Below, one piece after another: positions 7,846-27,000 of a stretch of DNA of 64,000 bases (position 1 is the first letter of the stretch; each line of letters starts with the position of its first letter). Source of the DNA: Streptomyces sp. V1I1 (GTDB lineage: Bacteria > Actinomycetota > Actinomycetes > Streptomycetales > Streptomycetaceae). Below the pieces are notes generated by a model. That model ran no database searches, was not told the origin of the DNA, and was given only the letters and a program-made list of their open reading frames with translations. The stretch is from the NCBI RefSeq assembly GCF_030817355.1, contig NZ_JAUSZH010000001.1, positions 1,550,001 to 1,614,000 on the forward strand, given 5' to 3'. The translations under genes and the position numbers were made by a program.

Positions 7846-7903
7846 CCGGTCACCGGTCACCGGTCACCGGTCACCGGTCACCGAGGATCGAGGATCGAGG
7901 ATC
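7846..7903. repeat. Two adjoining heptanucleotide tandem arrays
   Basis: CCGGTCA x5 (7846-7880) is followed after 2 nt by GAGGATC x3 (7883-7903). The stop codon of the RING protein gene lies inside the first array, so the repeat number can change the C-terminus of that protein. Confidence 0.95.
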
Positions 7904-10513
7904 GAGAGCCGTGACCATGTCGGCGGCAGCGAGCAGGCGCACCCGCGCAGCGTCCTGGCTGAGCGGATACAGGGCGAACACCTCGCTTCCGTCGGGCAGT
8001 TCCAGGTCTCCTCGGAGCAGGTATGCCAGCCGCGGTCCCGCCGACGGCCCGTCACCATCGTCGCCCTCGCCCGCGTGAGCGTCCGTGTCGGGCGAGCCGA
8101 TCCGGGCAGCGAAGTCCGCCACGTCCTCGCCGTCCCGCCGTCGGTACACGCTCCGCGAACCGTCCGTGTGGCGCACAACGACCGTGGCCGCCCGGGCCGC
8201 GGCCTGCCACACCGCCAGCTCGCCCAGGCCGACGCGCGAGCCCGAGGCGAACAGGTCCGTCAGCCGGTGGGCGAGGGTGGCCAGCGCGTCAGCGTGCCGC
8301 CACACGGCGTGGTGCGTACCGGTGACCCCCTTGACGACGTCGAGCCAGCGCATGGTGCGTGCCTGCACGTCGATGAGCAGCGGCACGCAGGCGCGGCTGC
8401 TCCCGGTGAGGTCGAAGCGCTGCTCGACGGAGCGCGGGTCGAAGACCGGCCCCCGGTTCCCGGGTTGGTCCCGCAGCATGAGCCCGGCGAAGGCTTCCGC
8501 CAGGTCGCCGAAGGGGACGTTGTTGTACGAGTAGACGACCGCGACAACGTATCGGACGCCGGCTGCGCCGAGCCGCTCCAGATCGAGGTCCACGAACTCG
8601 CTCGCGCCGAGCGGAGGCGGCGCGTCCTGGAGGTCGCCGGAGTGCACCGCGGCATGGCTCGCGAACCGCAGGCTGGTGTAGTCGCAGACCCCGACCTGCC
8701 GCCAGTCCGCGTCGAACATCGCGGCCGACAGGTCCAGGTCGGTCCTTCCCGAGGTGGGGCTCTCCATCCAGTGCAGGAACAGGCGCAGCGTCCTGCCGTC
8801 CGGTACGGCGAGTTCGCTGCCGCGCGGAAGGGTCACCAGGGCTCGGGACGCGGTCCGTTCGGTGAACGGCGCGACGACAGCGTCCAGCGCGGCGTCGACG
8901 ACCGCGACCTCTACGGGTGCCGCGTTCCCCGCCCGGCGCAGCATCTCCGCCGTCAGCACGTCGACCACGGTCCGCACGAGGGCGGCGGGCAGCGTCGGCC
9001 TCTCGTCGTCGATCACATGGGTCTTCGCCGCCGCGCCCTTGGGGAAGAACACCCGTGCCACGCGCTCCCGGATCCGGGTGCGGATCGCCCCGAGCGCGGA
9101 CAGCAGGACGGCCGGCGCCACCCGCGGAACCACCCGCTCCAGCGCGGAGACGACGGCGCTGGCGCCGTCCTCGTCCCCCTCGCCGATCAGGCGCAGCAGG
9201 TGGTCGAGGCGGCGGACGAGTTCGCCCGGCCGCCGCTCGAGCAGCGTGAGCGCCCCTGCGATGTCGCGGGCCGCGAGGGCGGCCTCGACCTGGCCGCTCC
9301 AGCTGGAGGCCGTGACGGCCGGGCCGGTGACGTCGATGGCGTCGACGGTCTCCGCGGCCGTGCGCAGAGCGGCGGACAAGGCATCGTCGCCGAGCCGGGT
9401 GCCGCGCAGCGCGGCGAAGGCGAGTGCCGCGCGCGGGAACCGGTCCGTGTGCTCGAAGGGGTGCAGGAGTTCCGCCGCGTGGATCCAGGCCCGCCGGTGC
9501 CGCCGCATGTCCTGGGCGGCCTGTGCCGGGTCCAGTGTGTCGAGGACGGACAGCAGGGCGCGGCGCAGGGGCCGGGGTACGGCGGCGAAACGCGGGATCT
9601 CGACGAGTCCGGCGTCTCCGCCGGAGCGGACCGCGAGCACGCGCAGCACATCGGTGGCGGTGTCGATGAGCCGGGCCATGACGGGAAGGGTGGTCGGCGT
9701 GGCCGCGGGATCGGCGAGCAGCCAGACGACGAGGCGGGCCTTCGTCTCCCGGCCCGGCACGGTGGTCGGCAGTCTGTCGAGGTCGTCGCGGGTCCTGGCG
9801 GCAAGCAGCGCTTCCAGGTCGTCGGTGTCCTGGGGGCTGAGAGCGCCGGTGCGGGAGAGCAGGGTGTCCAGTTCACGGGCCGCGTCGGCCTGACGGGCCG
9901 CGAGGTCGCCGCCGTACGACAGAAGGCGCAGCCGCTCGGGCGGCGCGGCACGGCGGAACAGCTGTCGGCGCGGGCGCTTGGGGCGCAGGAACGGATCGGA
10001 CGGGTCGATGCGGCGCTCGCACACGGGGCACGCCGAGAAGTCCGCGCCGTCGAAGCAGGCGCCGCACACCAGGTGGGCGCACGGCGAGACGGGCACGACG
10101 GATTCCACCGTGCCGCAGAGCACGCACGGCTGCTCGGGGCGCTGGAACAGCACGGTGAGCACGCGGTCGACGTAGTGCGTGTATGTGTCGTGCGGTGTGG
10201 TGTCGGGGAAATCGCGCAGCAGGGGCACATGCTCGCGGTCGGCGCCGAGGGCGCGGTCGATGTCGCCGAGCAGTTCTCGGCCCACCGCGCCGAGGGTGGG
10301 TGCGTCGAGTGCGGCGAACGCGGCGCGCAGCAGCGGTGCCAGCAGGTAGCCGCGGTCGACGAGGTCGGCTTCGAGCAGGGCCACGTCGCCGCCGGCCGGG
10401 ATTGCGGCGGCTGCCGGAGCGGGCGGGTAGACGGCGCCGCGGCGCGACAGAAGCACGGCGGCGAGGCTGCGCGGGCGGGTGGTGGTACGGGTGGTGACCG
10501 TGGTGCTGGACAA
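7871..10513 (-). CDS. Large RING-finger protein with TerD-like C-terminal domain (MXAN_6230/SCO0854 type)
   Basis: About 880 aa from TTG 10513, which has a strong GGGGGAGAAAGAG site. ATG 10579 is in frame but lacks one. A zinc-finger RING motif lies near residues 120-160: CVLCG...CAHLVCGACF...CPVC (C-x2-C, C-x-H-x2-C-x2-C, C-x2-C). A long alpha-helical middle part follows. Near residue 620 onward is a TerD-like beta region (DLDLSAAMFD, HSGDLQDAPPPLGASEF, VVAVVYSYNNVPFGDLAEAFAGLMLR). RING domains in bacteria are rare. This architecture is known as a conserved family in Streptomyces and myxobacteria, without assigned function; a ubiquitin-like ligase or tellurite/stress scaffold role is speculation. 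The extreme C-terminus is encoded by the repeat arrays. Confidence 0.85.
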   Translation of the reverse strand: MSSTTVTTRTTTRPRSLAAVLLSRRGAVYPPAPAAAAIPAGGDVALLEADLVDRGYLLAPLLRAAFAALDAPTLGAVGRELLGDIDRALGADREHVPLLRDFPDTTPHDTYTHYVDRVLTVLFQRPEQPCVLCGTVESVVPVSPCAHLVCGACFDGADFSACPVCERRIDPSDPFLRPKRPRRQLFRRAAPPERLRLLSYGGDLAARQADAARELDTLLSRTGALSPQDTDDLEALLAARTRDDLDRLPTTVPGRETKARLVVWLLADPAATPTTLPVMARLIDTATDVLRVLAVRSGGDAGLVEIPRFAAVPRPLRRALLSVLDTLDPAQAAQDMRRHRRAWIHAAELLHPFEHTDRFPRAALAFAALRGTRLGDDALSAALRTAAETVDAIDVTGPAVTASSWSGQVEAALAARDIAGALTLLERRPGELVRRLDHLLRLIGEGDEDGASAVVSALERVVPRVAPAVLLSALGAIRTRIRERVARVFFPKGAAAKTHVIDDERPTLPAALVRTVVDVLTAEMLRRAGNAAPVEVAVVDAALDAVVAPFTERTASRALVTLPRGSELAVPDGRTLRLFLHWMESPTSGRTDLDLSAAMFDADWRQVGVCDYTSLRFASHAAVHSGDLQDAPPPLGASEFVDLDLERLGAAGVRYVVAVVYSYNNVPFGDLAEAFAGLMLRDQPGNRGPVFDPRSVEQRFDLTGSSRACVPLLIDVQARTMRWLDVVKGVTGTHHAVWRHADALATLAHRLTDLFASGSRVGLGELAVWQAAARAATVVVRHTDGSRSVYRRRDGEDVADFAARIGSPDTDAHAGEGDDGDGPSAGPRLAYLLRGDLELPDGSEVFALYPLSQDAARVRLLAAADMVTALDPRSSILGDR

Positions 10514-10781
10514 GTCTCTTTCTCCCCCTTCCGGATGACCGGGTGTCGCGCGGGGCGGGAAGTGAGCACGCTGATTCATGAGAAGAAGTGAGAAGGAAGC
10601 ACACTCGGGAGCCGCCCCGCGCCCCGTGAACGTAACAGCCGTCGGGCCAGCGGTTCATCCTGTTTTCCGGGCGTGCGTCGCCCCTGGGCGAAAGCCGCCC
10701 GTGACCACAGGGTGCCCTGACGTGGCTCGGAACCGGACGGGCCGCGGCGTCGGCGGTCCCGCCGCGGGCGGCCGGCCCGCG

Positions 10782-12482: not shown

Positions 12483-13154
12483 GTGACCGTGGTCATGGCG
12501 GTCATCGCGGCGCTGGCCTTCGTCTTCTCCTTCGGCAACGTCTGGGCACTCGCCCTGCGGCTCGGTGTGCCCCACCCGATCGCCCCACTGATCGCCCCCA
12601 TGGTCGATCTGTCCGTCGTCGGACTCCTGGTCGCCCTGCGGTTCCTGGCCCTGCGCAGCGTGCCCAAGACGGAGTTGAAGGCCGGTACCCGGCTGCTGCA
12701 CCTGTGCGGCCTGCTCACCCTCGCCCTGAACACCGCCGAACCGCTGCTGACCGGACGCTACGGACGCGCCTGCCTGGACACCGTCGCCCCGCTCCTGCTG
12801 CTCGGCTGGGGCCACGTCGGCCCAGCCTTCCTCGCCCAGTTCCACACTCTCACCCGCCCCACCCCGCACCTGGAGGCCGCCGCCCCCATCTCTGAACCGG
12901 TGACCGCCGAAGTACCCGTACCCGAGCCCCCGACGCCCGCTCCGGCTCCGGCTCCGGCCGCTCTGCCCGTCGCCGTCGCCAAGACGACCCGGCCCGCCTC
13001 CGGCCCGGCCCTGCCGGTCGCCCTGATCGACTCAGCCCGGCGCATCGCGGACACCCACCGCGCCGAGCACGGAACTCCCATCACCGCCGCCCACCTGGGC
13101 ACGCGCATGGGCGTCGCCCTGCCGGTGGCCACCGCCGCACTCGCTCAGCTCTGA
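12483..13154 (+). CDS. DUF2637 membrane protein (SpdB-like)
   Basis: 223 aa from GTG 12483. There are three to four N-terminal hydrophobic helices (VVMAVIAALAFVFSFGNVWALA; PIAPLIAPMVDLSVVGLLVAL; LLHLCGLLTLALNTAEPLL; DTVAPLLLLGWGHVGPAFLAQ). A Pro/Ala linker and a short helix-turn-helix-like end (IADTHRAEHGTPITAAHLGTRMGV) follow. DUF2637 proteins sit between the transfer ATPase and Rep genes of AICEs and help plasmid spread. Upstream, AAGGAGGT at 12437-12444 serves a 10-codon leader ORF whose TGA overlaps this GTG, suggesting coupled translation. Confidence 0.85.
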   Translation: MTVVMAVIAALAFVFSFGNVWALALRLGVPHPIAPLIAPMVDLSVVGLLVALRFLALRSVPKTELKAGTRLLHLCGLLTLALNTAEPLLTGRYGRACLDTVAPLLLLGWGHVGPAFLAQFHTLTRPTPHLEAAAPISEPVTAEVPVPEPPTPAPAPAPAALPVAVAKTTRPASGPALPVALIDSARRIADTHRAEHGTPITAAHLGTRMGVALPVATAALAQL

Positions 13155-13304
13155 GCCCCAGCCGTCCCCGGGCAAATCCCCCTCTCTGAACCCACGCCCG
13201 CCAACGGGTCTGGTTCGCCATGCCCCGAGCAGCACCAACGCGCCTACAGATCCGGCTGGTTGCTGCTCGGGGCCACCCACCCGAACAGAAGGGACACGCC
13301 CCGA

Positions 13305-14750
13305 ATGGTCACCCTGGACCTGCGCCACGTGGCAAGCCCCGCCGTGCGGGACCTGCTCCACCTCGTCAACCACCCCGACTTCGACCGCGCGCAACAGCAG
13401 ATCGAGCGCCTCGGCGGCTGCACCGAACCCGTCCGCCTGACCGGCCACACCACCACCGTCGATTCCGCGACGGGTGAGGTGCTGCGCTCCTACACATCCT
13501 CCGCCGAACCGACGGGCAGCCTGCTCACCACCTGCGGCAACCGCCGCGCCTCCCGCTGCCCAGCCTGCTCCCGCATCTACGCCGCCGACACCTACCACCT
13601 CATCCGCGCCGGCCTCTCCGGCGGCAAGAACGTACCCGACACCGTCCGCACCCACCCCCGCGTCTTCGCCACCCTCACCCCGCCGTCCTTCGGCCCCGTC
13701 CACAACCGCCTCACCACCCCCGGCGGCGATATCCGTCCCTGCCGCTGCCGCAAGCTCCACGACCCCACGGACGCCCAGATCGGGACGCCGCTCAACCCCG
13801 CGACGTACGACTACGCGGGCGCGGTCCTGTTCAACGCCCACGCCTCCGCCCTGTGGGCCCGCTTCACCACCTACCTGCGCCGCGAGATCGCCGCCCGACT
13901 CGGCATGACCCAGAAGGCCGCCCACGCGGTCCTGCGGATCTCCTTCGCCAAGGTCGCCGAGTACCAGCAGCGTGGCCGGGTCCACTTCCACGCCGTCATC
14001 CGGCTCGACGGCCCGGACGGCACCAGCCAGCCCCCGCCGCCGTACGCCACCGTCACCGTGCTCACCGACGCCGTACGTGCCGCCGCCGCACGGGTCCGCG
14101 TCACGGTCGAGTCGGATGCGGTCGGGGAACGCGAACTCGGCTGGGGCGAACAGCTCGACGTACGCGAGATCACGGCCTTCGGCACCGGTGCCGAATTCAC
14201 CGACCAGGCCGTGGCCGCCTACGTGGCGAAGTACGCCACCAAGTCCGCTGATGCCTCCGGCGCCCTCGACCGCGCCCTGTTCTGCCGCCCCTGCCAGGGA
14301 CGCGGCGCCACCCTCCTGCCCCACGGCACCCCGCTCCCGTGCACCGCCTGCGACGGCACCGGGCAGGCCGGGCCGTTGCCCCGGCTCGCCGTCGCCCGGC
14401 ACGTGCGGCAGATGATCCGCACCTGCTGGGAACTGGGCCGCCTGCCGGAGTTCGCCCACCTCAAGCTCCGGAAGTGGGCGCACATGCTCGGCTTCCGGGG
14501 CCACTTCTCCACCAAGTCCCGCCACTACTCCACCACTCTCGGCGCACTGCGCGACGCCCGCCGCGCCTGGCGCACCGAACAGGCCCGCACCCACGCCGGC
14601 ATGCCCGACCTCGACCCGACGACCACGCTCGTCGTCGGCCACTGGGACTACCTCGGCTCGGGCTACAGCGCTGGCGCCGCACTCCTCGCCGCCCGCGTCT
14701 GGCACAGCAAGGAACTGGAACGGCAGTTCGCGGCCGAAGGGGGCTGTTGA
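13305..14750 (+). CDS. RepSA-type replication initiator
   Basis: About 481 aa from ATG 13305; an in-frame TTG at 13260 would add 15 residues. It shows features of the rolling-circle initiator of pSAM2 relatives: a zinc-like cluster CGNRRASRCPACSRIYAADTY, the HUH-like histidine motif GRVHFHAVIRLDG, a second Cys-rich patch (CRPCQGRG, CTACDGTGQ), and the family stretches HLKLRKWAHMLGFRGHFSTK and THAGMPDL. It initiates replication of the excised circle. The stop overlaps the xis start by one nucleotide. It looks intact although transfer genes upstream are broken. Confidence 0.92.
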   Translation: MVTLDLRHVASPAVRDLLHLVNHPDFDRAQQQIERLGGCTEPVRLTGHTTTVDSATGEVLRSYTSSAEPTGSLLTTCGNRRASRCPACSRIYAADTYHLIRAGLSGGKNVPDTVRTHPRVFATLTPPSFGPVHNRLTTPGGDIRPCRCRKLHDPTDAQIGTPLNPATYDYAGAVLFNAHASALWARFTTYLRREIAARLGMTQKAAHAVLRISFAKVAEYQQRGRVHFHAVIRLDGPDGTSQPPPPYATVTVLTDAVRAAAARVRVTVESDAVGERELGWGEQLDVREITAFGTGAEFTDQAVAAYVAKYATKSADASGALDRALFCRPCQGRGATLLPHGTPLPCTACDGTGQAGPLPRLAVARHVRQMIRTCWELGRLPEFAHLKLRKWAHMLGFRGHFSTKSRHYSTTLGALRDARRAWRTEQARTHAGMPDLDPTTTLVVGHWDYLGSGYSAGAALLAARVWHSKELERQFAAEGGC

Positions 14751-14974
14751 TGGCCTCGCCCCCGCTCGCCGTCCTCCACGCGGAGGCGGCACCGGTGCTG
14801 GATCTGCTCGCGGTGCCCCAGTTCATGGCTCATCTCCAGCTCGGCCGCTCCGCCGTCTACGACCTGCTCCGCTCCGGCCAACTCGCCTCGATCACCCTTG
14901 GCCGCGCCCGCCGCATCCCCACGGACTCGCTCACCGACTTCATCCGTACCCGCCTGGAACAGGAAGCCGCCTGA
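14750..14974 (+). CDS. xis: Excisionase (MerR-like winged helix)
   Basis: 74 aa. The helix-turn-helix core LLAVPQFMAHLQLGRSAVYDLLRSGQLASITLG is followed by RRIPTDSLTDFI, the typical excisionase-family pattern. It is coupled to rep and int by 1-nt overlaps. It should direct the integrase toward excision. Confidence 0.9.
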   Translation: MASPPLAVLHAEAAPVLDLLAVPQFMAHLQLGRSAVYDLLRSGQLASITLGRARRIPTDSLTDFIRTRLEQEAA

Positions 14975-16281
14975 TGACCACTGCCCGCCCCGCTTCGTCC
15001 CGCCGCTCCCGCACCCGTGCGAACGGAGACGGGACCGTCTACCAGCGCAAGGACGGACGGTGGGAAGCCGCCGGATACGTGCTGGCCCCCGGCAACACCC
15101 GCAAGCGCGTCCGTGTCTACGGCGCTACCCGTAAAGACGCGCTGACCAAGCTCACCGAAAAGATCGCCGCCAGCAACCGCGGACTCCCCGTCGCGACGGC
15201 CGACAGCACCGTGAGCGCCTACCTCACGTACTGGCTGGACGGCGTCGCCGTTCACCACCTGCGGGAGAACACCCACACCCGCTACGCCACTTCCATCCGC
15301 CTCCACCTCAAGCCCGGCCTCGGTGCCAAGAAGCTCGCCCGGCTCACCACCCGCGACGTCCGCACCTTCCTCGACGGGCTCCGCACCACCTGTCAGTGCT
15401 GCGTTCAGGAACGGGACTCCGTTCAGCGGTCCTGCTGTGCCATCGGCCAGTGCTGCGAGAAGCGGCTCTCGCCGCTGACCGTGACGTACGTCCACGCGGT
15501 CCTCAAGTCCGCCCTGGAACACGCCGTCCGCGAGATCGAACTCCCGCGCAACGTCGCCCGGAACGTCAAAACGACCACGCCCCGCCCCAGGCGCTTCCAG
15601 CCCCTCACCGCCACCGAAGCCCGGCAACTCCTCCAGGCGGCCAACAGCGACCGGCTTCACGCCCTGTATGAACTCGCTCTGCGCACCGGACTCCGCAAAG
15701 GCGAACTCCTCGGCCTCCACTGGGAAGACCTCGACCTCGACGGCGGCACCGCCACCATCCACCGCTCCCTCCAGCGCACCCGCAGCCAAGGGCTGACCAT
15801 CCTGCACACCAAGACCCTGGCCTCCGAGCGACGCATCGCCCTCCCCACCGAATGCATCAACTCCCTCAAGATCCACCAGGAACGGGAGCAGGAAGAGCGC
15901 CGGGCGGCCGGAACAGGATGGACGGACAACGGGCTCGTCTTCACCACCCAGAAGGGCAAGCCGCTCGACCCCACCAACCTCACCCGCCGCTTCCGCCGCC
16001 TCCTCCACAGCGCAGAACTCCGGACGATCCGCTTCCACGACCTCCGCCACTCAACCGCAACCCTCCTCCTGGAACAAGGCGTCGACCTCTTCGTCATCAA
16101 GGAACTCCTCGGCCACGCCCACATCGGCGTCACCGCCGGCGTCTACGCCCACGTACGACTCCGCCTCCAGCGCCAGGCCATCGACACCCTGGGCAGCGCC
16201 CTCGGCCCCTGCGGCTTGCGATCCCCACGGATCTCGAAGTCCATCGCATCCCCTGAGCTGGGGCGTTGCGACGACCGCTAG
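14974..16281 (+). CDS. int: Tyrosine-type site-specific integrase
   Basis: 435 aa. It has an N-terminal AP2-like arm-binding region (GDGTVYQRKDGRWEAAGYV), a SAM-like core-binding domain (YLTYWLDGVAVHHLRENTHTRY) and a catalytic domain. The catalytic domain has RTGLRKGELLGLHW (first Arg), HDLRHSTATLLLEQG (His-x-x-Arg), LLGHAHIGVTAGVYAHV (His and tyrosine nucleophile). A Cys-rich insert (TCQCCVQERDSVQRSCCA) is common in AICE integrases. The final approximately 25 residues (LRSPRISKSIASPELG) are not typical and may come from DNA brought next to the gene. No direct repeat marking attL/attR is obvious downstream. Confidence 0.95.
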   Translation: MTTARPASSRRSRTRANGDGTVYQRKDGRWEAAGYVLAPGNTRKRVRVYGATRKDALTKLTEKIAASNRGLPVATADSTVSAYLTYWLDGVAVHHLRENTHTRYATSIRLHLKPGLGAKKLARLTTRDVRTFLDGLRTTCQCCVQERDSVQRSCCAIGQCCEKRLSPLTVTYVHAVLKSALEHAVREIELPRNVARNVKTTTPRPRRFQPLTATEARQLLQAANSDRLHALYELALRTGLRKGELLGLHWEDLDLDGGTATIHRSLQRTRSQGLTILHTKTLASERRIALPTECINSLKIHQEREQEERRAAGTGWTDNGLVFTTQKGKPLDPTNLTRRFRRLLHSAELRTIRFHDLRHSTATLLLEQGVDLFVIKELLGHAHIGVTAGVYAHVRLRLQRQAIDTLGSALGPCGLRSPRISKSIASPELGRCDDR

Positions 16282-16359
16282 AACCCAAGAAGATCCCGGC
16301 GGGGCTTCCGCCTAAACACCCGCTCGACATTTGCGAGCGAGATTTCTTGCCTATCAGAA

Positions 16360-16695
16360 TTACTCTGCGCCGGTAATGCCGTCGACGAAAGTCAGCGCAC
16401 TCTCAAGCGCACTCCTCAGATACGACCGCGCATCTCCGGTGTCGGCCTTGCTCAAGAGGATCGTCAGAAATTCCGAGTCCGGATACCCCGCAACGCCTGC
16501 CGACTTAGCAACGTCGAGCTGCGACCAGATAGCGATCATCATCTCGTTGCAGGCTCGGGCCTGACTCAGGCTGCCAGGAGTGTCGCTAGCGAAGATCTCG
16601 CGCGCCGAGATCCCAAGTCGATGCCCGAGCGTACGCAGGAACAGCTCCCTCGCATCTGACTCCAAGGCCGACTGGACTTGATCACGAATCTTCAT
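16360..16695 (-). CDS. Candidate immunity protein for the Rhs toxin
   Basis: 111 aa, predicted mostly alpha-helical, cytoplasmic, with no signal peptide. I recognise no family. The start codon overlaps the stop of the Rhs toxin gene (ATGA-type junction, 16692-16695), the usual position of the cognate immunity gene. Base composition is clearly lower in GC than the flanking genes and matches that of the toxin tip just upstream, so both probably arrived together. Function as an antitoxin is inferred from position only. Confidence 0.7.
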   Translation of the reverse strand: MKIRDQVQSALESDARELFLRTLGHRLGISAREIFASDTPGSLSQARACNEMMIAIWSQLDVAKSAGVAGYPDSEFLTILLSKADTGDARSYLRSALESALTFVDGITGAE

Positions 16696-19600
16696 TGATC
16701 CATATCCCAGAAGTCTTCGTCCGTCATTGGCTTACCGCCGTACGGATCACGCGGAAGCGAATCGACGTCGTATCCGCGTGAGCGCAAAACGGCGACCCGG
16801 GTGTTTCCGTTCATGATGGTTCCATCTGGTTTCACCTTCAGCGACTCATCCCTACCGGAACGCAAGGAGAAGACAATGTCTTGGGTGTCTTGCTTGTGCC
16901 AGAAATCCAGCGAGCTTTTATCGAGCGAACTGTCCGGGTGCAGAGATTTCAGCGAAGGGCATCCACCGGAATTGTGAACCAGTACCGGCGTCTCGCCCGC
17001 CAGCACATAGTACGTGTGGAGGTCTTCAACTGTGAGGTTGTACGTACGCGCATGCTTGGTGAACGGGCGGTTGTTCGTCACGGTGACGGTGGCGCCATCG
17101 TCCGTGAGGAGTGTCGCGTTTGGCTGGAGTTGACCGGCTTCGATCCACCGCTTCTCGGAGGGGGACCAGAAGGGGTGCTCATGCGTGGCGATGAGCTTCT
17201 GGGGTCCGTCATCGGTCGCGATCGTCAGTTCATTGAAATACTTGTCGTCTTCGGTGCGAACCAGGCGTGAGACCTTGCGGCTGCCGGACTTTCCCGTCTC
17301 AGGGTCCGTCGCGAGGACTTCGTCTCCGACCTCGATGTCTTCAATGTCCTTCGTGGAACCATCAGCCATGAGGACGTCAGTGCCGGCGAGGAAACAGTTG
17401 CAGCTGCCGAGGAGCCTTCTCAGCGCCGCTGTGTCGCCGGGCGCAGCCTGAGCACTTTCGGCTTCGAGTCTGCCGTACAGGCCTCTCAGTTTGCTGCCGA
17501 ATGCAGCTAGGGTTGCGCCAGCGCCGAGGGATCCTCCCGCGGCGACCTGTATCTCGTTCTCTACGGTCTCGGCAGCGAGGCGGAGGCAGGCCGTCGCTGC
17601 CAGAGCGCAGCCGCCGATAACTGCGATGGCGACTCCGACCCATGGCTGCTTCGGGTCGAGTAGGCCAACTTCGTTCGCCGCCTTACAGAACGCGCCGTTG
17701 TCTTCCGCGGAACTTCCTTGGCAGAGACCGACTGCCCAGATGTGGATGGCGTCTTGGTAGGTGTTCCAAGGTGTCAGGATTCCCCGAGCTGCCATCTCCT
17801 TCGGAGTGAGGATCTTGACACCCCCGATTGTGGGCTGTCCCTGCGCGGGCGGAGCTCCCGGTGGGGCCGAGCCGCCGCCGCCCTTGACGGGAGTGCTGGT
17901 GTCTACGTTCCCGTCGTCGTCGTAGCAGGCGTAGTGCGTGCAGCCGGGGCCATTGCCGGGCGTCCAAACCGTGTCGGGGTTGCCGACGCTGCAGCCGTCG
18001 CAGAACAGACCGCTGGGGTCGGAGGAGGTGACCGGGGTGTTGTTGGCGTACGAGTACCCCTGCATCTGCTGGGGGTTCGTCAGATCCATTACTGGGTCGA
18101 CGCTGATGAAACGGCCGGTCGCTGGATCGTAGTCGCGGGCGCCGATGTGGGTGAAGCCGGTGATGGTGTCGATGTCGCCGCCGACGAAGCCTTTCTGGCC
18201 GGGCCAGAAGGTGGGAGCGGTGCCGCGGGGGGCGCCGTAGGGGAGTTGCTTGCGGCGGTTGGCTGCGAGGGTGGTGGCGCTGACGGACAGTTGGTTGGTG
18301 CCGTGGTGGTCGGCGACCAGGAGGCGGACCTTGCCGTCGCTGCTGGTGCGGATGGCGGAGCCGCCGGGCACGGTGTAGTAGCGGGTGCCGGCCAGGGTGC
18401 CGGTGGACTTGGTGAGGACGAGTTCCTGGCCGCCGGGTAGATACAGGGTGGTGGCGGTTGGTTCCCGCTTGAGGATGCGCGTGCCCTCGGCGTCATAGAG
18501 GAACTTGGTGGTTGCGCCGGAGATGGTGGAGGTGGCGAGTTTGCCTTCCTGGTTCCAGGTGAGGTCTTGGACGGCTCCGGTGGCGGGGGTCTTCTTCGTG
18601 AGGTTGCCGGTGGCGTCGTACTGGTAGGTGTCTGCCCCGGTGGCGCCGCCGTTGGCAGTGATGGTGCGGACGGCGTGCGGCTGGGCGGCGCCGGTGGTGG
18701 TGGGGTAGGTGTAGGTGCGGGTGGTGTCGGCGGTGATGGGGCCGGCTTTGTGCTGGGTTTCGGTGGCGCGGTCGCCGGTATTGGTGAAGGTCCAGCTGGT
18801 CCAGTACGGGTCTACGGTGCCGAGGGCCGGGGTGCCGGTTCCGTTGACCGGTTTGGTTGTGCAGGCATCCGCGGTGGTCCAGGCCTCGGACAGGCGGCGG
18901 GCCCAGTCGTAGGCGAAGCACTGGTCGTCGGCGATAGTGCCGTCGTTCTGGTCGTCGCGGATCCGGGTGACGTTGCCGACGGTGTCGTAGGTGTACTTGA
19001 TGTTCGACAGGGTCTGGGGGTTGGAGGTCTCGCGGTCGACGATTGAAGTGGCGAGGCGGCGGGTGACGGTGTCGTAGCCGAGGGTCTGGATGACGCGGGT
19101 GCCGAGGTTGCCGAGGGAGGCCTGGGCGAGTTCGCCGAACGGGGTGTAGCTGGCGCCGCGCAGGTAGACCTGGGACAGGGTGCCGTCGACGATGCCGAGT
19201 TGGTCTTGAGCGCCGTAGTGGTTGGTGACGGTTTCGGCGGGCAGGGCGGTGGTGGCGTTGGTGTTGCCGGTGCTGTAGGCGGCGGTGGCGGGCAGTCCGC
19301 TGACCGGGGTGAGGGTGGTGGCGATGGTGTAGGTGCCGGCGAGCTTTTCCTCACCGGTCACCGACGGCACCGTCACCGTCGTGCCGGTGGCGTGGCCGGC
19401 GGAGTCGTAGCCTGTCACGGCGGTCTTGTAGGCGGCTGCCGGGGTGAGGGAGGTGTCGTAGCGGGTGGAGGAGGCGGGCAGGCCCTTGCCGCCGGTGGCG
19501 GTGTCATACGTCCACTCGGCCAGCTTGGTGCCGGTGACAGAGCCGGTGCGCAGGCTGGTCCTGCGGCCGAGTTCGTCGTAAGTGGTAGCCAGAGTGCCGC

Positions 19601-22600
19601 GGGGATCCGTAGTGGTTTGGATGCGGCCGTCGGCGCCGTAGGCCATGCTGCTGGCGCCCTTGTCGGGGTCGGTGGTGGCGGTCTGCCGGCCACGCAGATC
19701 GTGGGTGTAAGTCCACGAGTTGCGGCTGGACGCGTCGGTGACCTTCTCGAGGTTGCCGGCCCGGTCGTAGGCGTAGGTGGTCTTCTCGTACTGGCTGGCG
19801 GCTGCGCCGATGAGCGGGTTGCGGTCCTTGTACTGGCGTCCCTCAATAGCGCGGCCGCGGATGTCGTTGATGGCGAGGGTCGCGGTGCCGCCGGCCGGCG
19901 GGACGGTGGAGGTCCAGGTGTCGCCGTAGGCGAAGGTGGTGCGCCACTTCTCCACGTTCAGCGACAGGGTGACCGTGGCCGTGGGACGGCCTCGGCCGTC
20001 GTACTCGGTGAGGACCGAGGTGGGAATCTGGTTCGGGGTGACCGTGAGCAGCGCGGTGGAGACGGCCTGGTCGTTGTAGAAGGGGGCATCGGCCTGGAAG
20101 GCGCGGCCATGGGTGTCGTAGAAGGTGCTGGTGACGGTCCGGCCGGTGGTGCCGATCGCATCCATCTGGGTCTGGCGCTCACGCAGCAGCGAGTCGTAGA
20201 TCGCGACACTGGTACCCCAGGTGCCGTTCTCGTACAGGTTCTTCGTCGTCACCGTGGACGGTGCGGTGGCGGAGATGTTGTACGCAAAGGTGGCATTGGG
20301 GTTGGCGGTGGTGGCGCGGCCTGCGCTCCAGACCTTCGTGAGGCGGCCGAGCGCGTCGTATTCACCGGTGGCGGCGCGCTGGTTGGGGTCAGTGACCTTC
20401 AAGGTGAGCCCGCGAAGCCCGTCTAGGGCGGTGGTGGTGCCGGGTCCCTTGGGGTTGGTGACCGTGACAGTGGTGGGCTGGGCACCGGTGGCGGGGGTGT
20501 AGGCCGTGGTGGCCGGCCGACCATCCTGACCCGCAGCGGAGACTATTCGCCCGTACTGGTCGTAAGCGGTCTGGGTGGTGGTCTCCCACACCAACTGGTC
20601 GTTGATGTCCAGCTTGGATGCCTGCTCAGTCTTCGTCACGTTGGCCTGCCCCGGGTTGGGGGCGACGCCGGATGCCTGACCGTCGTAGGAGGTGCGGGTG
20701 GATCCGGTGACGGCGGGATAGAGGTAGCCGAGCGCGCAGGGTGCCTGGGCGACGGTGGTGACCTGGGAGGGGTAGGAGATCAGCCAGTTGGTGGTGTCGG
20801 GGGTGACGTAGTAGGTGCGGGTGCACTTCGGCTTCACGCCGCGGGCGGTATCGCCGTCGTCGCCCTCGGCGGTCACCAGACCGTAGACCGGGTCGTAGTC
20901 GCGGGTGGTGGTCAGGGTGCGCCAGGTCGTGCCGTCGTCCAGCAGGGTGCTGGCGGCCTCGGTGACCGTGCCCGCATGCCGCGCGATGGCGTCCGGCAGC
21001 ACAGGGCCGGGGGTGCTCGGTTTGTCGGGATCAGTGATGCCGGTGATGTTCTGGGTGGCGGTCGGGTCGGATTCCCACGGGGTGTAAGTGGTCTTGGCGA
21101 CCACCTTGCCGCCGGTCCCGTCCTTGTCGTAGGTGCGGGTCTGCGCGGGTCGGCCGGCAAAGTCGTCGCGGTCGGTGACGCCGTTGATCTTGGCCGCGGG
21201 CCTGGGGCTGCCGTCAGCGAGAGTGTCACCGGCCATGCCGAGGAAGTAGCTGGTCTCGGACCTGGTGCGGTTGGTTGCGCCGGTCAGGGTGCGGACCGTG
21301 CCGTAGCCGCGAAAGACACTCCAGCTGCGATGCTTGTCAACGGCGAACTCGGATGTCTCGCGGCGCCAGTTCGGTCCGTTGTCGTACTCGTAGGTGGTGG
21401 TCTTCGACGGCGAGCCGGTGCCAGCGGTGGTGTCGTCCTCGATGACCTGGGTGACCAGGTACTTGTGGAACCAGTCCTTTACCGGGTCGACCGCGCCGTC
21501 CGGGGTCCACCAGGACGGGTAGCAGCGTTTGGTGTTCTGGTCCGGGGAGGACGGCAGGCTGGTGGACGTGCACTCGGTGGGGCTGTAGGTGACGAGGGTC
21601 TGGCCGCCGGTCTCGCTGGTGATCTGGGTGATGCGGTACTTGTTCAGCGGCGGCCGTCCCTCGGCGGAGTCCACACGGTTCGGCATCGGCGTCCCGCCGA
21701 AGGTGGTCTTCGGCAACGTCAGGTCCGCGAGGGCGCCGGCCTTGCCGGTGTGCTGGATCGACTCCAGCCACAACGCCGGCTTTGAGACGTCACCTGTGGC
21801 CGGGAAGGACTGGGCCAGCGTCCAAGTATCGACCGGCTGCATTGTGCTGCCTTGCAGGGCAAAGGTGTTGATGTCGGTCAGCCGCTTCCGGGACCAGAAC
21901 GACGGCGACGGCTTCAAGCACTGCTTACCCGCGGTGCAGTCCAAGTCGACCGGGACGTCCGGCCAGTTCGTGGCGTGGTCCGCATCGAAAGTGCCGCAGT
22001 TCGCGAGGCACCGCTCCGCCACACCGAACATCACCCGGCCCGCCGGATTGACCGTCGCAGGAACGGCACCGGCGCGCAGGCCATAGTCGATGCGGCTCAA
22101 GTACCCACCACGGATGTATGAGACCGGGTCATCGACCTTCAGGTTCTGCGCGTAGTAACCGGTCTCCTTGGAGTAGTACAAGGCCATGGCGTTGTGGTGC
22201 GGGTCAACGACGTAGTCGAGGTTCCAGCGCCAGCCCTGCGTTGCCGCGGACGAGGCGAAGTCCGATCCGTGGCCGGGCTCGCCGCTGTGGTTGCCGTAGA
22301 CCGGAGCAGTGAAGACGGAGTTCGTCTCCTCCTTGCCGTTGGTCCACCCGGGCAGGCGGTTCTTGCCGAACCAGTACTGGGTGCCGTCCAGCGAGGTGAC
22401 TTTCCAGTACTCGTAGTCCTCGTCACCGTTGACATCGTTCGGGGAGCTGCCGAGGATCCGCTCGACGCGTGAGCCATCGTCGTCGGCGAGCTTCCATACG
22501 CTCTTACCCGCATCCCACACCAGGGCGGTAGACGTGCCGTTCAGGGAGAGTGTTGCGTTCTGCGACTTCCAGCACAGATCGCCGACCTTCTCCGTGTTGT

Positions 22601-23720
22601 TACCGCCCTGCTTGTCGTTCTCACAACCGGCATAGCTGCGCTCGATGAACCCCGGCGAGTAGTCCCATCCCTCACCGATCCACGATGTCTGGTTGTTCGT
22701 CGACGACGTGCGGCCGTCCACCGCAGAAGAGCTGTACGACAGCGCCACCTTCGGCTGCAGACCGCCCGGGACGGACGGCACGCCCAGCGGCGCACTCCAG
22801 CCGAACGCACCGGAGTTCCCGCCGGCCGACCACGACCCGGACGGGGACAGCGAGGTCGCCTTGAACGATCCCTCACCGCCATCCGCGCTGGCCGCGGCCG
22901 CCAGCACCATCATGCTGCTCCCAGCAGTGGTGCCCGCCGCCGCAGACGACTGCTTGCCGCTGCCTTGGGCGGCCGGGAACGCTACGGTCGCGGTGAGCGT
23001 GCGGGCGGCGGTGTTGTTGTTGGTCGCCAGCGGCACGCCCTTGAGGCACTCGGCCTTGCCCGGGGTGGTCAGCGCGCAGGCAGGAAGCTGGACCAGGCGC
23101 AGCCGGGAGGACCAGCCAGCGCCGAAGGCCGACTCGATGCTCGCGTAGTCGACCTGGACGTCGGCCGCACCGGGTGGGGTGGTGGTGGCGGTCGGTTGTA
23201 TCGAGAGCAGCAGGCCCTGGATCCCGGCCCGTTGCGTGGTCTTGCGGTCGGCGAGCCTCACGCGCACGCGGTCCGGGCTCGCCGTACCCGCGGTGCGGGT
23301 GCCGGCTTTGGTTCCGGCAGCGGCGGTGGCCGGCCGACCGACTCGGACTGGCAGTGACCCCGCTTGGACTCGCTGACGGTCGGCGGCCTTCCTGGTCATG
23401 GTGCCCGGGGCGCCGGGCAGCACGACGTCCGCCTGCCCGGCGGCCGGCCAGGCGATCTTCCTCGGCGGATGCCAGCGGTGGCGCTGCGAGGGCGAGCGCA
23501 TCACCGAGCGGTTGACGGTCAGGTCCTTGCCTGGCACCGATGCGGTCTTCTGCACCGGCCGCAGCGAGAACTCGCCACCGGGCTTCGCCCAGGCGGGCGC
23601 GGACAGCAGCGAGAAGATCAGAGCCGTGTAGAGCAGGCCGACCGAGGCGGCCTGCGTACGACGCAACCGCAATAGCGGGTGAATCGAAAACGGCATGCCA
23701 AAGCGACGGCGGAACAGCAT
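16692..23720 (-). CDS. Secreted Rhs/YD-repeat polymorphic toxin with HINT domain and ParB-like tip
   Basis: About 2342 aa from ATG 23720, which follows AGGGGTGGGG; GTG 23795 is an alternative. An N-terminal export signal (VGLLYTALIFSLLSAPAWA) is followed by a spore-coat/SpvB-like beta region (GAFGWSAPLGVPSVPGG; LSYSSSAVDGRTS). Many YD repeats (YDxxGR, TYDTVGN) and the core end GRFISVDPVMD...SDPSGLF come next, at about 18000. A hydrophobic pretoxin segment and a HINT autoprocessing domain (NCFLAGTDVLMADGS ... THEHPFW ... LVHNSG, about 16975-17405) follow. The last approximately 95 residues are the variable tip: DGTIMNGNTRVAVLRSRGYD resembles box II of ParB/sulfiredoxin-fold nucleases. The Rhs shell is thought to encapsulate and release the tip in rival cells. 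The toxin activity is inferred. Confidence 0.9.
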   Translation of the reverse strand: MLFRRRFGMPFSIHPLLRLRRTQAASVGLLYTALIFSLLSAPAWAKPGGEFSLRPVQKTASVPGKDLTVNRSVMRSPSQRHRWHPPRKIAWPAAGQADVVLPGAPGTMTRKAADRQRVQAGSLPVRVGRPATAAAGTKAGTRTAGTASPDRVRVRLADRKTTQRAGIQGLLLSIQPTATTTPPGAADVQVDYASIESAFGAGWSSRLRLVQLPACALTTPGKAECLKGVPLATNNNTAARTLTATVAFPAAQGSGKQSSAAAGTTAGSSMMVLAAAASADGGEGSFKATSLSPSGSWSAGGNSGAFGWSAPLGVPSVPGGLQPKVALSYSSSAVDGRTSSTNNQTSWIGEGWDYSPGFIERSYAGCENDKQGGNNTEKVGDLCWKSQNATLSLNGTSTALVWDAGKSVWKLADDDGSRVERILGSSPNDVNGDEDYEYWKVTSLDGTQYWFGKNRLPGWTNGKEETNSVFTAPVYGNHSGEPGHGSDFASSAATQGWRWNLDYVVDPHHNAMALYYSKETGYYAQNLKVDDPVSYIRGGYLSRIDYGLRAGAVPATVNPAGRVMFGVAERCLANCGTFDADHATNWPDVPVDLDCTAGKQCLKPSPSFWSRKRLTDINTFALQGSTMQPVDTWTLAQSFPATGDVSKPALWLESIQHTGKAGALADLTLPKTTFGGTPMPNRVDSAEGRPPLNKYRITQITSETGGQTLVTYSPTECTSTSLPSSPDQNTKRCYPSWWTPDGAVDPVKDWFHKYLVTQVIEDDTTAGTGSPSKTTTYEYDNGPNWRRETSEFAVDKHRSWSVFRGYGTVRTLTGATNRTRSETSYFLGMAGDTLADGSPRPAAKINGVTDRDDFAGRPAQTRTYDKDGTGGKVVAKTTYTPWESDPTATQNITGITDPDKPSTPGPVLPDAIARHAGTVTEAASTLLDDGTTWRTLTTTRDYDPVYGLVTAEGDDGDTARGVKPKCTRTYYVTPDTTNWLISYPSQVTTVAQAPCALGYLYPAVTGSTRTSYDGQASGVAPNPGQANVTKTEQASKLDINDQLVWETTTQTAYDQYGRIVSAAGQDGRPATTAYTPATGAQPTTVTVTNPKGPGTTTALDGLRGLTLKVTDPNQRAATGEYDALGRLTKVWSAGRATTANPNATFAYNISATAPSTVTTKNLYENGTWGTSVAIYDSLLRERQTQMDAIGTTGRTVTSTFYDTHGRAFQADAPFYNDQAVSTALLTVTPNQIPTSVLTEYDGRGRPTATVTLSLNVEKWRTTFAYGDTWTSTVPPAGGTATLAINDIRGRAIEGRQYKDRNPLIGAAASQYEKTTYAYDRAGNLEKVTDASSRNSWTYTHDLRGRQTATTDPDKGASSMAYGADGRIQTTTDPRGTLATTYDELGRRTSLRTGSVTGTKLAEWTYDTATGGKGLPASSTRYDTSLTPAAAYKTAVTGYDSAGHATGTTVTVPSVTGEEKLAGTYTIATTLTPVSGLPATAAYSTGNTNATTALPAETVTNHYGAQDQLGIVDGTLSQVYLRGASYTPFGELAQASLGNLGTRVIQTLGYDTVTRRLATSIVDRETSNPQTLSNIKYTYDTVGNVTRIRDDQNDGTIADDQCFAYDWARRLSEAWTTADACTTKPVNGTGTPALGTVDPYWTSWTFTNTGDRATETQHKAGPITADTTRTYTYPTTTGAAQPHAVRTITANGGATGADTYQYDATGNLTKKTPATGAVQDLTWNQEGKLATSTISGATTKFLYDAEGTRILKREPTATTLYLPGGQELVLTKSTGTLAGTRYYTVPGGSAIRTSSDGKVRLLVADHHGTNQLSVSATTLAANRRKQLPYGAPRGTAPTFWPGQKGFVGGDIDTITGFTHIGARDYDPATGRFISVDPVMDLTNPQQMQGYSYANNTPVTSSDPSGLFCDGCSVGNPDTVWTPGNGPGCTHYACYDDDGNVDTSTPVKGGGGSAPPGAPPAQGQPTIGGVKILTPKEMAARGILTPWNTYQDAIHIWAVGLCQGSSAEDNGAFCKAANEVGLLDPKQPWVGVAIAVIGGCALAATACLRLAAETVENEIQVAAGGSLGAGATLAAFGSKLRGLYGRLEAESAQAAPGDTAALRRLLGSCNCFLAGTDVLMADGSTKDIEDIEVGDEVLATDPETGKSGSRKVSRLVRTEDDKYFNELTIATDDGPQKLIATHEHPFWSPSEKRWIEAGQLQPNATLLTDDGATVTVTNNRPFTKHARTYNLTVEDLHTYYVLAGETPVLVHNSGGCPSLKSLHPDSSLDKSSLDFWHKQDTQDIVFSLRSGRDESLKVKPDGTIMNGNTRVAVLRSRGYDVDSLPRDPYGGKPMTDEDFWDMDQ

Positions 23721-24033
23721 TAAAAACCCCACCCCTAGGACCCGCATCATGTGCCGAACGCGCAAATAAAACCCGACTCGATGGCACGCACACAAGACCC
23801 TGATCGTTTCGGTACAAGGAAAGTTCTCGAGACGAGATCAAGGTCCTCACCAGGGTGAACATAACGGCAAATAGAAAGTGATCAACTAGGTAGAATTCAG
23901 AATAGAAGGGCAGGAATTCATCGGTCCGCTTGTGTAGACGGCGGCGTCAGCGGCCTCGCTGCGAAATACGGCACAGGTGTGAGTAATCTGCGGGTCTCAG
24001 CCATCCTGCGCGTGCGCTCCAGAAAGGCGCCCC
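23721..24033. promoter_or_regulatory. Divergent intergenic region between Rhs toxin and FG-GAP protein genes
   Basis: AT-rich stretch (about 23858-23930) between two divergent secreted-protein genes; it must hold both promoters. TCACC-AG-GGTGA (23848-23859) is a small inverted repeat and GAATTC occurs twice (23892-23897, 23912-23917). No confident -10/-35 pair was assigned. Confidence 0.4.
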
Positions 24034-27000
24034 ATGACAAACCCGTACACGACGGGCTGCAGAAGAAAACGCTCTATAGCGTTTCTTCTCGCCCTCGGAC
24101 TCCCGTTGACGGCCGTCACCACGCTGGTCCTTCCTTCCCCCGGAGCCGCCGCCGCCAGCGCGCCGCCGAAGGCGTCCGCCTCCGAGGTGGAGGCGTTCGA
24201 TGTCGCCGCGAAGACCGGGCAACGCGTGGAGATCCTCGACCGGCGGGAGGAGACCGCGGAGGTCTTCGCCAATCCCGACGGCACCACCACCCGCCGCCAG
24301 CACTCCACCCCGGTTTGGTCCCGTTACGAAGGCGTGTGGAAGAAGGCGGACGCCACGATCGTCCGGCACGGCGACGGCACGATCGGCCCCGCCTCACCGG
24401 CCTTCGGCATCACCTTCTCCGGCGGCGGTACCGGCCCGCTGGCGACCATGACCAAGGGCGGCAAGAGCCTGTCGCTGTCCTGGCCGACCGCGCTTCCGCA
24501 GCCGGTCCTGGACGGCAACACCGCTCTGTACAAGTCGGTTCTGCCGGACATAGACCTGAAGGTCATCGCCGAAGTCGACGGCTTCGCCGAACACCTGATC
24601 ATCAACACCCGGCAGGCCGCCGCGAACCCCGCAGTCAAGAGCATCAAGCTCGGTATCGCCACCATGGGTGTCACCCTTACCGACGACGCCGGGGACAACC
24701 TGACTGCCAAGGACGCCGACGGCAATGTCGTCTTCAGCGCCCCCCGCCCGAAGATGTGGGAGCAGCCGGCCGCCACCGATGAGCAGCCAAGGGTCAGCGG
24801 GGCGCGCCTGGCCACTGCGGACACCGCCGACCAGCCGCAGACCGCGCCGGTGAGCGCCGATGTCTCCGGCAACACGCTGACGCTGACCCCGGACCCCACG
24901 CTGCTAGCCACCGCGGACCAGTTCCCGCTGGTGGTGGATCCGCCGTTCACCGGTGGGTACCGGGAGAAGTGGGCGGTCGTGTATTCGGCGACACCAGGTG
25001 AGGCGTACCCGAACGGGTCCGGCTGGCACTCCGGCACGCCCAGCGACGAGCCGCGGGTCGGCTACAACGGCACTGGCGCCACACGGTCGTTCTTCGCGAT
25101 GAACACCAACGGCCTGGAGCAGGCCGACATCCTCGACGCGACCTTCGCCGTGGTCGAGACACACTCCTGGGGCTGCAACGCCACTGCCGCCGGGCCGACA
25201 GAGCTGTGGTCAACCGGCGGCATCACCACCACACCCACCTGGAGTAATCAGCCGAGCTGGGCCACCAAGCTCGCCTCCGACTCCTACGCCCACGGCAACC
25301 CCACCTTCTGCCCGGGGAACCTGGGGCACGATTACAGCTCCACCGCGTTGACGAACTACATCCAGCAGGCGGCCGACAGCGGCTGGGGAAGCGTGGCCTT
25401 CGGCATGCGCGCCGCCAGTGGCTACGAGTACAACACTGAGAGTTTCAAGCGGTTCACCAACAGCCCTGCTCTGGAAGTTACCTACAACTACAAGCCCACC
25501 GTCAGCAGCGCCAAGGCCTATGAGGGGTCCTGGAGTCCGGGTGGCGACGGCAACAAGCCGGTTCCGTGCGGTGACGTGATCGGCAACAGCGGGCTGGCTC
25601 TGACGGCACTACTCAAGGACCAGGACGGCGGAACGGTCACCGGCGAGTTCTCCGTGACCACCTCCGGCGGCAGCGCGGTGTCCTTCAGTCCCTCCACCGA
25701 CACCGTGTCCACCGGGCAGACGGCCTCGGTCTCCGTGCCCTACTCCAAGCTGGCCAACGGGTCATACACCTGGAAGGTCCGCGCCAAGGACCAAGAGGGA
25801 ACCACCAGCAGCTACTCGGCCCCTTGCGCCTTCACCGTGGACCGGGTCGGCCCCGCCGAAGCCGTGACCGTGACGAACACCGACGGCACAGCGGCCAATG
25901 AAGCCACCGACAAGTACCCGGCCCGCAAGAGCGTCCAGCTGAAGCTCTACAACTCCGCCAACGACATTGCAGGCTTCTGCTGGTCAATGGACGGATATCT
26001 GTCCGCCTCCAGCGTCCGCTGCCACAACGGTACCTGGGTGAACGTCGGAGCGGACCGCCACACCGCCACCATCGACGTGATCCCCACCGGCTGGCCGAAC
26101 AGCACCCTGCACGTGGTTGCCTACGACACTGCCGACAACCACTCCCCCCTCGACAACATCAAGGACGCGGTCACCCTCAGCACGACCAAGTCCGAGTTCG
26201 TCTACGCCCCGGGGAAGGACCCGGGCACCGGCTTTGCCCGCACGGACCTGCCCGGGGACCTGAACGGCGACGGCTACGGCGACATGGTCGCCACCGACGA
26301 CACCAACAAGTTGCGTCTGTACGCCGGGGACGGCACCGGCAAGGTCGCCCCCGCCCAAACGGTCGGAATCGGCGGCTGGGGCGGCGCTCTCATCGCGCAC
26401 CGCGGCGACCTCGTCGGTTTCGCCAGCCCGACCGCGGAGCCCGACGGCTACGAGGACTTCGTGGTGCGTCTGAGCGACAACAAGCTCTACATCTACGGCG
26501 GCACCGGCCTCGGCACCCCCGCCTTCGACACCCGCACCGAACTGCCCCACCCGAGCGTGGACGACGCCACAGACTGGAGACGCCTCCGGCAGATCATCGC
26601 TCCCGGCGACATCGACGGCAACACGACGGCCGGCCACGTCGGCGGCAACGACCTCATCACCATCGAATGCAAAGACGATGGCTGCACCAACGCTGCCCTG
26701 TGGCTCTACACCGGCAACACGATCGGCGACGCACAGAACAATTCGCAGGACCAGACCGAGCCGTTCGACCTGTACAACCGTGTCAACCTCGGCCTCGCCG
26801 GCTGGAAGGACTACACCAACCTCGCTGTCGGTGACCAGAACGGCGACGGCGTCAAGGACCTCGTCGCCCGCGACCCCGGCACCGGCCAGCTCTACCTCTA
26901 CCCCGGCCAGATCACCAGCGGAGTCTTCTCCCTGGGCACACGGTCCACATACGGAAACGCCGGCTGGCAGCAGCGCCCCCACCTGGCCTCCCCCGGCAAC

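Follow-up and report, generated by a model that had tools for sequence, protein, structure and literature searches.

An Rhs gene with a C-terminal tip and an overlapping small gene

In a window of 64,000 nucleotides from Streptomyces sp. V1I1 (contig NZ_JAUSZH010000001.1, positions 1,550,001 to 1,614,000), we analyzed a predicted toxin tip at the end of an Rhs gene and the small, putative immunity gene that overlaps it. As described below, the tip and the small gene form a single unit of inheritance and exchange that has passed between carriers unrelated to each other. The Rhs carrier gene (16692..23795 of the window, on the minus strand like every other feature of the locus) starts with TTG and encodes 2367 amino acids (aa): a shell of RHS repeats (RHS_repeat, PF05593), a HINT pretoxin domain (PT-HINT, PF07591) and the tip, which is the 91 residues left after HINT (16695..16967) and has a predicted ParB/sulfiredoxin (Srx)-type fold. 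The small gene (16360..16695) starts with ATG and encodes 111 aa of no known family. Its ATG and the TGA stop codon of the Rhs gene share the 4-nucleotide sequence ATGA (16692..16695), an overlap that suggests translational coupling. An earlier sequence-only reading of the window had described a HINT domain followed by about 95 residues unlike the shell, and a 111-aa open reading frame (ORF) overlapping the Rhs gene; both descriptions fit what was found.

The N-terminus of the Rhs protein looks like a signal peptide when read by eye (MPFSIHPLLRLRR...LLSAPAWA^K, 23586..23696), through which the protein is probably exported by the Sec pathway. The HINT domain (16968..17402; Pfam and intein models) starts with Cys and contains ATHEH and a C-terminal VHN followed by S. 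Pfam places PT-HINT on residues 2143-2276 (E 2.8e-22; E 1e-23 in another scan). The intein C-terminal splicing region model passed its cut-off (28.8 bits, cut-off 15.6) and the N-terminal splicing model stayed under its own (21.3 vs 24.5). HINT is predicted to cleave itself and thereby to release the tip; the RHS repeats and the release domain are those of an Rhs/HINT polymorphic toxin.

Against a GC content of 69.0% for the whole window, the shell stands at 67.7%, HINT at 59.5%, the small gene at 59.2% and the tip at 54.6%. Only one of 634 intervals of 600 bp in the 64 kb was as GC-poor as the tip and small gene together (<= 57.2%), and it overlapped the module itself. Thus, the tip and the small ORF are indeed GC-poorer than the shell, as had been read from the letters, but HINT is low in GC too, so the tip boundary is not exactly where the drop sets in. 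Among relatives, the tip was below its carrier in 18 of 18 measurable rows and the small gene in 16 of 18 (the 18 include two duplicates and no minus-strand loci). A low GC content is therefore in part a standing feature of this tip and alone is no proof of recent arrival.

The small gene follows the tip

We found 38 homologues of the 111-aa protein at E <= 0.01; our alignment A2 holds the query and 37 of them, the 67-aa fragment P0039 being omitted. Searches of Pfam, NCBIfam, PADLOC and PHROGs gave no match to the protein, and those of the Protein Data Bank (PDB) sequences no convincing one. The candidate explanation that it belongs to a known immunity or defense family was rejected on these results, in agreement with the sequence-only reading, which had placed it in no known family. 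The ratio of nonsynonymous to synonymous substitution rates (dN/dS) was 0.03-0.38 in 10 of 11 pairs for the tip and 0.13-0.45 in 9 of 11 for the small gene (dS was saturated in one of the 11), and in one pair, whose sequences are nearly the same, it was 0.91 for the tip and 0.79 for the small gene. Because both have homologues and mostly show dN/dS well below 1, the tip and the small ORF look like real genes; that the small gene is a chance ORF was ruled out by its homologues and the mostly purifying selection on it.

Next, we compared the distribution of the two genes. Of 394 genomes of the family, presumably Streptomycetaceae, 14 were matched by the tip profile, seven through longer ParB-like proteins and seven through the tip. 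The small-gene alignment search found 7/394 genomes, the same seven as the tip, with the small gene directly behind the tip in each (in genome G036 the tip is damaged). Altogether we collected 26 unique tip loci (here given L numbers), namely that of the own genome, 21 contig loci and four more family genomes; two further family matches, with contigs as long as those of L007 and L016 and taken to be duplicates of them, were left uncounted. A homologue scoring >100 bits lies directly downstream in 22 of the 26 and one of 48 bits at L018, some of these proteins having been members of the search profile. The downstream ORFs of L019 and L020 joined the profile when it was extended stepwise (5752 ORFs searched; E 7.6e-5 and 8e-4, next unrelated ORF at E 2.2). 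The two genes overlap by ATGA or GTGA at 23 of the 26 loci, and at L015, L021 and L029 the tip is damaged while the small gene is full-length. The sequence-only reading would have been refuted by relatives lacking the small ORF; among the 26 loci no undamaged close-family tip lacks it, the divergent L022 being the exception.

Divergence of the tip followed that of the small protein (Mantel rho 0.73, n=19, 0/5000 permutations as high), and the rho of tip against shell was 0.33 (n=15). The 19 rows are the 26 loci minus damaged L015, L021 and L029 and distant L018, L019, L020 and L022; duplicates L023, L025 and L027 were not in the count. By these sequence comparisons, the small gene adjoins and travels with the tip as the immunity gene of an Rhs/HINT polymorphic toxin would. 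The proposed exchange of the tip together with the small gene is supported by the co-inheritance and the varied carriers seen here. In four more distant pairs, dN of the small protein was 2.8 to 5.5 times that of the tip, with a dS ratio comparable to or lower than saturation alone predicts, though dS >1 makes this ratio rough. Between L005 and L006 the tips are 92% identical and the immunity proteins 62%, and similar pairs exist. These data suggest that the predicted antidote diversifies faster than the tip.

The tip moves between carriers

When 21 full-length homologues were compared with the window protein, identity was 73-95% for the tip and 28-61% for the part of the shell that aligns; three of the homologues, P0046, P0048 and P0061, are DUF6531 carriers with no HINT listed. 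The tip was found on a DUF6531-Rhs carrier (L006), on ALF-repeat carriers with HINT (L003) and without it (L016), on an RHS-repeat carrier of Bradyrhizobium (L019), on a filamentous haemagglutinin of Rhizobium freirei (L022) and on a plasmid of Streptomyces sp. NBC_01727, where the small gene overlaps the toxin gene by 4 bases. At L008, L009, L011 and L012 the frame that holds the tip is only 110-230 aa long, which means that the carrier is broken or missing or was truncated in the assembly.

On a viral contig, L039, a phage portal protein (Phage_portal_3) has the tip at its C-terminus. The 108-aa ORF behind this fusion scored E 0.28 with the initial immunity profile and joined the extended one at E 0.0066. 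Across L039:1634-5825, the portal, the ParB-type tip and the small ORF come first, and behind them is a second stretch in which, by eye, the C-terminal region of the portal recurs. This second stretch differs at its C-terminal end, has a further small ORF, and resembles the displaced orphan tips of Rhs/CDI loci.

Conversely, we asked what related carriers end in. RHS cores like that of the window (E <= 1e-60) occur in 177/249 family genomes. Of eight sister loci with a clear C-terminus and RHS cores 47-82% identical (L074, L075, L076, L079, L080, L085, L086 and L098; L077 and L078 were left out of the ten as frames probably without a true C-terminus), none ends in the window tip, and that of L086 has instead a GGHHR tip, a distant relative. 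The close tip profile reached at most 5.2 bits on 29 sister-shell loci, where 1500-base flanks may miss some tips. A conserved carrier whose C-terminal tip varies and is exchanged, as seen here, is again a mark of Rhs/HINT polymorphic toxins. In a sample of the class, the tip was found in 2/296 genomes, both of the own genus, and in a like sample drawn around G662, a Bradyrhizobium genome, 2/289 were matched, G662 itself and the weak L047. Judging from these searches, the tip is rare outside its own family.

A profile search for small proteins with the tip gave at least 302 homologues at E <= 0.001. Among the 120 listed, 99 are <= 100 aa and 67 of these have a Met start, and some are clearly severed ends of bigger proteins. 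Weak matches of the tip profile were set aside (L030-L036, L038, which is the own genome's second, L046 and L047). L030-L036 are 439-546-aa proteins with a ParB-like box (e.g. DGILVNGNTRVAAL) from seven genomes of the same genus (E 0.001-0.009). They are not tips, the small-gene alignment search did not find the small gene there, and three of the proteins had no Pfam match above cut-off.

A second family of ParB-type tips, with GGHHR or NGHHR, stands on carriers of the window's family (L103, L104, L105, L106 and L108), and L103-L106 have their own conserved small gene behind the tip (MSLIHSTDPDFRVCQ... in L103). Neither the tip of L103 nor residues 1-100 of the small protein behind it had a Pfam match. 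The GGHHR tips, aligned as A8 without L107 (internal stop) and L109 (fragment), are homologous to the window tip family (hhalign 95.9%, p 5.5e-9). When profile A5 was run on 1701 control ORFs, seven GGHHR-tip ORFs (six genes) ranked first with 17.9 to 9.1 bits, the next ORF scoring 4.9. The immunity profiles reached at most 5.4 bits in 36 control loci, showing that the window's immunity gene is not shared by the GGHHR tips.

The tip has a predicted ParB/Srx-type fold

The predicted model of the tip (pLDDT 85.7) has SerK (5x0g, 61 residues at 2.2 Å) and sulfiredoxin (3hy2, 69 residues at 4.4 Å), along with ParB and Noc, among its best structural matches, suggesting a ParB/Srx-type fold. Structure prediction, proposed in the sequence-only reading as a check, thus gave a model of the type it had expected. 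SerK and sulfiredoxin exemplify that a small ParB-fold domain like the tip can be an ATP- or ADP-using enzyme; they are not known as secreted toxins. PDB sequence searches with the tip gave no match to either, and the tip profile matched five PDB sequences, all designed trefoil-type proteins on the DGT stretch.

Conservation in the tip family marks a box-II-type motif, DGTIMNGNTR (tip D48-R57, 16797..16826). Among 139 sequences, D48 is conserved in 98%, G49 in 100%, G54 in 99%, N or H at 55 in 99% and R57 in 99%; in the wider family, position 55 is mostly N (84%), with H in another 15%. The phosphate-binding G-x-x-R loop (box II) is present and is collinear with GERR of ParB in a weak hhalign alignment. 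Hence the likeness to ParB/sulfiredoxin box II that had been noticed in the tip recurs as a motif on a model of that fold. His10 (16938..16940), found in 99% of 134 sequences, is a candidate catalytic residue and, going by the range offsets of the structural match, may lie opposite SerK residue 30. The near-invariant polar residues are H10, D48, R57, R64, D67 and R73.

Relation to known systems

In polymorphic toxin systems as described by Zhang et al. 2012 (PMC3482391), a carrier is secreted, HINT releases the tip, the tip enters a neighboring cell and the immunity protein protects kin. ParB-fold tips are already described there as a class, Tox-ParB and Tox-ParBL1, the nuclease label of which rests on analogy in that paper, and Imm20, Imm27 and Imm-SuFu are listed as Tox-ParB immunity proteins. 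By that description, Tox-ParB is like the window tip in being a C-terminal ParB-fold domain on Rhs/HINT or filamentous-haemagglutinin carriers, with a G-x-x-R loop and an immunity gene downstream. However, its motif is DGHHR, whereas the window tip has NGNTR, with the near-invariant His10 in its family, and its immunity proteins are those listed above, whereas the window's small protein has no Pfam or NCBIfam match (whether these libraries hold Imm20 and Imm27 models was unchecked). The window tip thus looks related to Tox-ParB and is not assigned to it. Tox-ParBL1 shares the predicted ParB fold, an Arg motif and occurrence in polymorphic toxins, but its description sets it apart by a conserved N-terminal Ser and [NT][RT][RT], against NGNTRV in the window tip. 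The MuF toxins of temperate phages, as portrayed in PMC5576092, resemble L039 in having a phage-head-associated carrier, a toxic C-terminus and a small ORF behind it; L039 differs in using the portal protein itself as carrier.

Because ParB-fold tips are already described, the toxin half is a variant and not a new class. What appears new is the NGNTR motif, the conservation of His10 and an immunity family to which nothing in the four libraries corresponds. Among the top-listed open-licence papers (up to 20 per search), titles and abstract beginnings gave no description of the pair, and the word toxin was not found in the main text of PMC12704722.

Proposed mechanism and its alternatives

We consider it quite probable that the tip and the small protein are a toxin-immunity pair, that the tip has the ParB/Srx fold and that it acts within the broad phosphotransfer class, by either chemistry. 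The Rhs protein would be secreted, and HINT would free the tip after contact with another bacterium, as family knowledge suggests. The freed 91-aa tip would be a minimal ParB/sulfiredoxin-fold enzyme whose G-N-T-R loop binds nucleotide or phosphate, and it may poison its target by phosphoryl transfer. The 111-aa protein would bind and block the tip in the cytosol of the producer and its kin.

Several results weigh against this reading. The Z scores of the structural matches are below 8 throughout, and Foldseek alone gave a best match of only E 0.36. By hhalign, the tip aligned weakly with canonical ParB (PF02195; probability 1.5%, p 0.035), little better than the immunity alignment, used as a control, or the GGHHR tips did with that ParB set (p 0.055 and 0.11). 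Of 46 tip-family members searched against Pfam, the best reached E 0.013 (ddrB-ParB), a model that appeared weakly in 5/46. The ORF downstream of L022, whose tip is divergent and only partially matched, is not a significant homologue (8.7 bits, E 0.47). Net charge is -2 to -6 in seven tips including their C-terminal tails, and its median is -1 in 19 tip cores but +2 in 120 small relatives, so charge does not decide between a nuclease and an enzyme using nucleoside triphosphates (NTPs).

Within the toxin-immunity reading, an NTP-consuming kinase or NTPase seems slightly more likely than a nuclease: SerK and Srx are what the minimal domain looks like, and it was by analogy that ParB toxins came to be called nucleases. 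Still, that the same pair contains a Tox-ParB-type nuclease (DNase or RNase), its active site blocked by the small protein, is a serious contender that we place somewhat short of an even chance: such an activity was proposed for ParB toxins (PMC3482391), ParB-like DNases and NTPases are reviewed together in PMC5512222, and the tip family is homologous to the GGHHR tips. A non-enzymatic tip, a nucleotide-binding switch or decoy resembling the ParB CTPase and toxic through binding DNA or a partner, would draw on the account of the ParB fold as a versatile NTP-binding module (PMC12704722); we regard it as improbable, since 91 residues are a minimal domain with no room for the canonical DNA-binding and dimerization domains of ParB, and the six near-invariant polar residues look catalytic in our judgement. 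Less probable still is a small gene that encodes a chaperone or rides with the tip as unrelated cargo. It tracks the tip and not the carrier, it stays full-length next to damaged tips, and its profile has no match behind the GGHHR relatives of the tip, of which four are followed by a different conserved small gene; these three features are expected of immunity genes.

A bolder proposal, to which we give rather little credence, is a carrier-independent two-gene module of a 75-90-aa NTP-consuming ParB/Srx toxin (e.g. a kinase or phosphotransferase, not a nuclease) with its own immunity superfamily. This module would move among actinobacterial Rhs and ALF carriers, proteobacterial Rhs and haemagglutinin carriers and a phage portal, and would also occur as standalone genes, maybe as toxin-antitoxin pairs.

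Neighborhood and implications

Beside the module lies an integrative-element block (12483-16281, plus strand) that encodes a DUF2637 protein, RepSA (a pSAM2-type initiator, E 1e-152), a small HTH_17 protein and a tyrosine integrase. The integrase is the next gene past the small gene and, on the plus strand, ends 78 bp before the 3' end of the immunity gene. The element was considered as the mover of the tip and rejected: no exact direct repeat >14 bp joins 16150-16700 to the rest of the window, and thus no attachment site was found. Searches for tRNA and RNA families found none in the 64 kb. Elsewhere, a 902-aa ORF (7871-10579, minus strand) has, by eye, a RING-like cysteine pattern (CVLCGTVESVVPVSPCAHLVCGACF...CPVCERR) that is unusual in bacteria, and a divergent gene about 240 bp from the Rhs start (24034-27288, plus strand) encodes a secreted-looking protein of 1084 aa with FG-GAP-like repeats by eye.

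The pair of 91 and 111 aa is a compact, testable example of a toxin class whose chemistry was inferred by analogy, and it defines an immunity family absent from the libraries searched. The near-invariant H10, D48, R57, R64, D67 and R73 make the question of nuclease or NTP chemistry directly testable. If the antidote changes faster than the toxin, kin groups may share the toxin but not the protection. The many small tip homologues and the portal-protein fusion suggest that the module serves bacteria and phages.
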